Origin: a virus
Strand: one strand, 5' to 3'
Virus record (IMG/VR): IMGVR_UViG_3300042691_015611
Coordinates: 1-38,594 of that record
DNA: 38,594 nt
The notes under the pieces are model-generated. The model saw only the letters and a program-made list of their open reading frames with translations. It was not told the origin of the DNA and made no database searches. Shown piece after piece: positions 25,117 to 25,438 of the stretch; position 1 is the stretch's first letter; each line of letters starts with the position of its first letter. Both the position numbers and the translations under genes were made by a program.

Positions 25117-25190
25117 TGGCAGGGACAGTAGGAATTGAACCCACTCCAACGGGTTTGGAAGCCGTTGTGCTACCTTTACACTATGTCCCA
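25117..25190 (-). tRNA. tRNA-Trp (CCA), CCA encoded
   Basis: Aligns with a tRNA-Trp layout: D-arm GTGTAAAGGTAGCAC, anticodon loop TTCCAAA (CCA) and T-arm GTGGGTTCAATTCCTAC; G-CCA is encoded. Two oddities: position 1 is T opposite T72, and the stem pair next to the anticodon loop is C-C. Read with a shifted loop it could be mistaken for Gly(TCC). Function may be reduced. Confidence 0.85.
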
Positions 25191-25205
25191 ATAATGCCAT
25201 TCATG

Positions 25206-25333
25206 CTATCACAGTTCTTTCGCTGTCCATAAGCCAATGGCTGTTATACCTAGTAGGTTAGCAGAGCAATCTCCTTCGGGCTGAACCCCTTCGTATGATG
25301 CGCCTACAGCGAAATTTTCGGTATAACCTATCT
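25206..25333 (-). ncRNA. Pseudoknotted RNA candidate inside the tRNA cluster
   Basis: Between tRNA-Met and tRNA-Trp, 174 nt hold no gene. On the minus strand GTTATACC (25327-25320) pairs with GGTATAAC (25250-25243), and TTTCGCTGT (25314-25306) pairs with ACAGCGAAA (25226-25218). These 8- and 9-bp helices interleave, so together they form a pseudoknot. AGCC-att-GGCT (25242-25232) fits between the two 3' strands, and TAGGTTA/TAACCTA offers a competing helix. It is not tRNA-like and I recognise no RNA family. It would be co-transcribed with the tRNAs. Confidence 0.6.
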
Positions 25334-25364
25334 CCATATAGATTGTTCAGATCTATATTTTGAG

Positions 25365-25438
25365 TACAGCAGGTAGGACTTGAACCTACGATAACCGAAT
25401 TATGAGTTCGGGGCCTTGACCAACTTGGCTACTGCTGC
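25365..25438 (-). tRNA. tRNA with CAT anticodon (Met or Ile2)
   Basis: Acceptor GCAGCAG/CTGCTGT (first pair G-T), anticodon stem CCGAA/TTCGG with loop CTCATAA, T-arm GTAGGTTCAAGTCCTAC, discriminator A, no CCA. Anticodon CAT could be elongator Met or, if C34 is lysidylated, Ile for ATA codons; initiator features are absent. Its 5' 10 nt overlap the coding end of the gene at 25429-25953. Confidence 0.92.

Follow-up and report, generated by a model that had tools for sequence, protein, structure and literature searches.

A conserved structured RNA in a tRNA slot of phage tRNA arrays

A structured element between tRNA-Met and tRNA-Trp

The reason for which stable RNAs other than tRNAs, such as T4 RNA C and D, GOLLD and ROOL, are kept in phage tRNA arrays is an old question, and the locus described here raises it again. 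The window, that is, the whole 38.6-kb viral record that we analysed, contains five tRNA genes, all on the minus strand according to ARAGORN, and four of them form one array. Within this array, tRNA-Met (25438-25364) and tRNA-Trp (25190-25117; ARAGORN coordinates) are separated by a gap of 173 nt. What occupies this gap? A coding gene was considered and dropped; no ORF of at least 60 aa in the window overlaps the gap or the element within it. At the gathering score, Rfam 15 recognised only tRNAs in the window, and searches over the gap up to E = 10 returned nothing meaningful and no HDV-family match; the element matches no known Rfam family.

An initial annotation had placed a pseudoknotted RNA at 25206-25333, with complementary pairs of 8 and 9 bp interleaved in the order A-B-A'-B' and a small hairpin. 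Dinucleotide shuffles of the 173-nt spacer contained some 8-bp helix in 15% of cases, some 9-bp helix in 4% and an interleaved 8-bp pair in 0.2%. The pattern is uncommon and not decisive alone, because a long window had been scanned to find it. A search pattern made from the two helices gave only chance matches elsewhere.

Comparison with relatives (see below) points to a real RNA product, a conserved, structured and apparently non-coding RNA of about 150-170 nt between tRNA-Met and tRNA-Trp. The span first annotated falls within this RNA, although it leaves out the hairpin at the 5' end (25364-25332) and, in the terminal stem-loop P4, the 3' arm (25201-25196). The first base of the element directly follows the discriminator base of tRNA-Met and its last base lies 5 nt before tRNA-Trp; the 3' limit (25196) was set by the end of P4 and the spacers. 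The features are as follows.

25365-25438, minus strand: upstream tRNA-Met(CAU) (Rfam tRNA 25365-25438; ARAGORN)
25196-25364, minus strand: whole RNA element, ~169 nt (core 25238-25364, cmsearch 149.9 bits)
25332-25364, minus strand: P1 hairpin, with two-sided changes across relatives at 8 of 11 pairs
25364-25362 / 25334-25332, minus strand: P1 base CUC/GAG, part of the P1 hairpin
25358-25351 / 25343-25336, minus strand: P1 8-bp stem, part of the P1 hairpin
25344-25350, minus strand: P1 loop CUGAACA, conserved, the proposed kissing strand K, complementary to 25286-25281
25320-25327, minus strand: P2 5' strand GUUAUACC (helix A of the initial annotation), a covarying helix with 94% of cells paired
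25243-25250, minus strand: P2 3' strand GGUAUAAC, pairing with GUUAUACC at 25327-25320
25303-25307, minus strand: P3a 5' strand GUAGG, with 3 of 5 pairs changing on both sides
25253-25257, minus strand: P3a 3' strand CCUAC, pairing with GUAGG
25266-25301, minus strand: P3b (GCAUC/GAU-U-GC) around the core AUACGAAGG-N-GUUCAG-N-CCGAWGGA, near-invariant, with two single-side G-U changes
25278-25289, minus strand: P3c hairpin GGN-GUUCAG-NCC, whose N-N' pair covaries (U-A/G-C/C-G)
25286-25281, minus strand: P3c loop GUUCAG, the proposed kissing strand K', complementary to the P1 loop
25196-25241, minus strand: P4 terminal stem-loop, with 10 distinct arm pairs and two-sided changes in 5 of 6 pairs
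25241-25236 / 25201-25196, minus strand: P4 arms GCCAUU/AAUGGC, paired in 10 of 10 versions
25117-25190, minus strand: downstream tRNA-Trp(CCA) (ARAGORN and Rfam); its 5' end is the RNase P site, which would set the 3' end of the element

The element recurs in the tRNA arrays of other phages

IMG/VR contains many relatives of the window by terminase. BLAST comparison of the gap with 41 terminase-sharing records yielded a single clear homologue, which lies in a different tRNA array and is 83% identical, and DNA patterns taken from the conserved core of this homologue led to further members in IMG/VR. A covariance model (R1) built from nine sequences recognises 27 full-length members (about 25 distinct) in IMG/VR phages, with scores of 92-150 bits, near-identical repeats of two contig groups being left out of this count; two further members are fragments cut by contig ends (L094 and L293). 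All members come from metagenomic or uncultivated viral contigs, with one copy in each record searched, and share 65-94% identity with the window across the core. The same insert, which the initial annotation had proposed to seek between the tRNAs of relatives, is thus found in the arrays of other phages. The candidates L097 and L106, as well as L291, L292 and L294, were judged to be chance matches.

Comparison of ten relatives with Rfam produced matches only to tRNA, tRNA-Sec-like and manA, all of them outside the element, and the L102 region showed no family match over the element. Among isolate phages, a DNA search using three members as queries was negative; no match to the model occurred in nine genomes of isolates (Streptomyces phages including Anedea and BRock), where the first-look filter passed no candidates, and direct searches of Anedea and BRock gave no significant match. 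The core pattern matched bacterial genomes 89 times, and the 80 matches scanned with the model were unconvincing. Text searches of the open-access literature, to which their scope was limited, retrieved no description of an RNA like the element.

One group of contigs with the element carries terminases 49-81% identical to that of the window. The element family spans at least two phage lineages, because contigs L240, L260 and L249 contain a different terminase and have no match to the polymerase of the window. The terminase of the window shares 54% identity with its counterpart in Streptomyces phages of the Stanwilliamsviridae type, and the different terminase of these three contigs is related to that of Streptomyces phage BRock, with ~53% identity for the L260 contig; judging from terminase relationships only, the hosts of the carrier phages are probably actinobacteria. 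Presence of the element is patchy, and several relatives with close terminases are without it, one of them a contig of 104.8 kb with a terminase 87% identical to that of the window, although contigs may be incomplete. Near the tRNA array, the window also encodes a Pyrimidine dimer DNA glycosylase domain (PF03013; 26571-27068), and a search with a JmjC-like protein neighbouring the element yielded no relatives.

Covariation supports the secondary structure

We examined the structure in an alignment (A4) of 24 distinct sequences. The structure, comprising P1 base and stem, P2, P3a, P3b, P3c and a loop-loop pairing, had 96.9% of cells paired in this alignment, which was fitted to the model and so favours the structure, with two-sided changes at 16 pairs and a covariation score of 0.312, as compared with 0.124 in shuffles. 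Sliding the partners by 1-3 columns left pairing below 40% and the covariation score at or below 0.058. P4 lies outside the model; its 3' arm was picked as the best complement, yet the distance between this arm and the next tRNA is constant. Covariation thus backs the predicted P1, P2, P3a, one P3c pair and P4. P3b is nearly invariant, with two wobble changes only, and P3c varies at one pair, so that the alignment tests both less thoroughly. The near-invariant core, AUCAUACGAAGG-N-GUUCAG-N-CCGAWGGAGAUUG-UCUGC, is likely to be a binding surface.

An unconstrained single-sequence fold of the window alone yields P1, P2, P3a and P3c. Its free-energy z-score is unremarkable (-1.1), and thermodynamics alone would therefore have missed the RNA.

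Conservation and covariation, on which the initial proposal had been staked, are both found in relatives. Of its elements, the 8-bp helix (25327-25320 with 25250-25243, GUUAUACC/GGUAUAAC, minus strand) covaries and corresponds to P2, and the small hairpin (AGCC AUU GGCU, or CCAU/AUGG) is present. The 9-bp helix (25314-25306/25226-25218, UUUCGCUGU/ACAGCGAAA, minus strand) exists in the window but is absent from every relative, where the longest match is 3-6 nt. Likewise, the complement TAGGTTA/TAACCTA occurs in the window but inspection of the alignment indicated that it is not kept in relatives, which lend no support to the two states it had suggested.

A kissing pairing is the probable partner of P2

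The partner that interleaves with P2 is most likely a kissing pairing between the loops of P1 and P3c. With G-U pairs included, 6 nt of the P1 loop CUGAACA (7 nt) are complementary to the P3c loop GUUCAG (6 nt) in every sequence; we estimate the chance of such a complement between loops of 7 and 6 nt at roughly 2 x 4^-6. Five of the pairs are invariant, and the sixth is C-G in 22 sequences, U-G in L101 and U-A in L273, the latter being a compensatory change on both sides. The proposal of this pairing is based on complementarity, together with a single compensatory change and a single wobble. P2 encloses P3c but not P1, so that the pairing interleaves with P2, and the topology class first proposed stands, although with another partner helix: A-B-A'-B' is supported by conservation and covariation, with B likely being the loop-loop pairing and not the 9-bp helix. 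We infer that the loops pair within one molecule rather than between two; the sequence fits both.

The element occupies tRNA slots and moves among them

For each of the 22 members in which an adjacent upstream tRNA is visible, the first position of the model coincides with the last tRNA base called by ARAGORN, 0 nt after the Rfam tRNA end. The next tRNA begins 3-6 nt past P4 in nearly all members, a spacer of 13 in L089 reflecting an alternative choice of arm. Ordinary tRNA-tRNA spacers in these arrays are mostly 0-5 nt; since ordinary tRNAs share this geometry, it shows the use of a tRNA slot and does not show processing. Members are flanked by about 14 different tRNA pairs, so the element is tied to no single tRNA, and comparison of the arrays indicates that its slots are shuffled between positions. 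The core is retained in L240, L243, L260 and L286, which have no upstream tRNA; the L243 contig is devoid of any tRNA, with the element ~45 nt upstream of an ORF.

Possible function of the element

We consider it moderately probable that the element is an independent phage ncRNA, carried in the array as a cassette, which tRNA-processing enzymes cut out of the tRNA precursor and which acts in trans. The element would be co-transcribed with the tRNAs of the array, its 5' end would be freed by 3'-end processing of the upstream tRNA, and its 3' end by RNase P at the downstream tRNA. The released RNA would form P1, P2, P4 and a P3 arm whose internal-loop core is near-invariant, and pairing of the P1 and P3c loops across P2 would lock the fold as a pseudoknot. 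Acting in trans, the conserved core would most likely engage a protein or RNP of the host or the phage in the course of infection. The sequences themselves support the conservation, the secondary structure, the slot geometry, the movement from one slot to another and the lack of an Rfam match; we infer transcription, excision, intramolecular loop pairing and action in trans. Against an independent RNA, L243, with no tRNA and the element ahead of an ORF, would also fit a 5' UTR element.

An improbable alternative is that the element regulates the array in cis, either as an antiterminator acting in the nascent RNA, like HK022 put RNA, or in a riboswitch-like manner, controlling transcription or maturation of the downstream tRNAs. 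Long untranslated arrays would gain from antitermination; the downstream tRNA, where seen, is on the same strand and usually 3-6 nt away, and the near-invariant core resembles a binding pocket. However, the element lies near the end of the array in L088 and L100, with one visible tRNA after it, and in mid-array in L102; the identity of the downstream tRNA varies, L243 has none, and we found no conserved alternative switching fold.

We regard as unlikely a self-cleaving ribozyme that matures tRNA ends. The cleavage site of theta ribozymes, which are HDV-like, coincides with the 3' end of phage tRNAs to within 1 nt in most cases (PMC10879173), and the element, like them, abuts a tRNA 3' end and is predicted to be pseudoknotted. 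Nevertheless, the bases at its tRNA junction belong to a local hairpin outside the pseudoknot, and members that lack an upstream tRNA still retain the core. The nested double pseudoknot order noted initially does not lead to HDV or theta membership either: the candidate for the conserved second helix of that type (25314-25306/25226-25218) is absent in all relatives. As regards J4/2, at the first position of which HDV-like ribozymes carry the catalytic C, the fold first annotated places U-A-U-G-G between a 4-bp P4 (AGCC/GGCU) and P2' in the window; relatives are without P2', and J4/2 is undefined there. An HDV-type ribozyme was dropped, for lack of a conserved HDV-type P2 and of an HDV-family Rfam match up to E = 10.

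Self-association, in which CUGAAC and GUUCAG loops would pair between molecules to form dimers or rings in the manner of phi29 pRNA or of the GOLLD/ROOL cages, is similarly doubtful. Two apical loops with six complementary bases suit intermolecular as well as intramolecular kissing, and GOLLD and ROOL, found near tRNA islands, assemble through kissing loops (PMC12286853). Yet the element is about five times smaller than GOLLD, and both modes of pairing are indistinguishable from sequence. We give equally little weight to the broader proposal of a new small-RNA class of CUGAAC/GUUCAG homo-oligomers or rings, one of several structured RNAs stored in tRNA slots and released by tRNA processing.

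A role against anticodon nucleases has been proposed for phage tRNA arrays, and the 7-nt loop CU-GAA-CA, with U at position 33 and GAA at 34-36, resembles the tRNA-Phe anticodon loop; still, a mimic or decoy for a tRNA-cutting defence nuclease is very improbable, as pairing with GUUCAG, including a compensatory change, explains the loop, and the stem varies in length and exceeds 5 bp.

Other inserts in the arrays

The arrays hold further inserts. manA RNA (RF01745) lies between tRNA genes in L246 (90-271), L247 (10702-10886), L263 (1730-1916) and L273 (1033-1213), and BLAST revealed inserts similar to these in L248, L276 and L290. manA RNA has been described as a 5'-UTR regulatory element; sitting between tRNAs, it does not immediately precede a protein gene there. 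A second conserved insert of ~163 nt occupies tRNA slots in L102 (442-605, minus strand), L256 (7800-7965, minus) and L249 (4234-4398, plus), is 78-93% identical between phages and has no gathering-level Rfam match (for L102, none up to E = 1). Inserts of ~120-126 nt in L102 (921-1047, minus) and L270 (3950-4070, plus) have similar ends (CAAGGCUAUA...UAUAGCCCCU) and were not joined by BLAST; they possibly represent another RNA family. An unannotated insert of 215 nt, 96-99.5% identical, separates tRNA-Glu and tRNA-Trp in L246 (911-1126), L263 (1118-1333) and L290 (690-905), and small inserts that look protein-coding occur between tRNAs in L091 (632-942), L102 (1423-1707) and L270 (3507-3784). 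Since they hold manA RNA and other unannotated inserts in addition to the element, tRNA arrays may act as cassettes for RNA genes that tRNA enzymes process.

Comparison with known RNAs

The element is a conserved structured RNA in a tRNA slot, and thus belongs with the structured ncRNAs of phage tRNA arrays. manA RNA, although found between tRNAs in several of the same arrays, is a separate insert differing in sequence and structure, and the element gives no RF01745 match. The large phage RNAs GOLLD and ROOL, which often lie close to tRNA islands, form kissing-loop cages (PMC12286853); they share with the element its setting and its proposed kissing loops, but are much larger, and the element has no Rfam match. 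The T4 tRNA region produces two RNAs without an assigned role (PMC3014915). These, RNA C and RNA D (rnaC and rnaD), are stable, 139 and 119 nt long, and lie in a phage tRNA cluster. The parallel with them drawn in the initial annotation extends to location and not to homology: their sequences differ from that of the element, and the covariance model R2, run on the T4 tRNA region with filters off, scored at best 7.6 bits, and not at rnaC or rnaD. Being small and clearly delimited, with natural variants, a near-invariant core and a structure backed by covariation, the RNA of this family lends itself to functional tests. As rnaD lies 1 nt from tRNA-Arg, the element likewise adjoins a tRNA, and the best reading of its setting is one analogous to that of T4 RNA C and D, GOLLD and ROOL.
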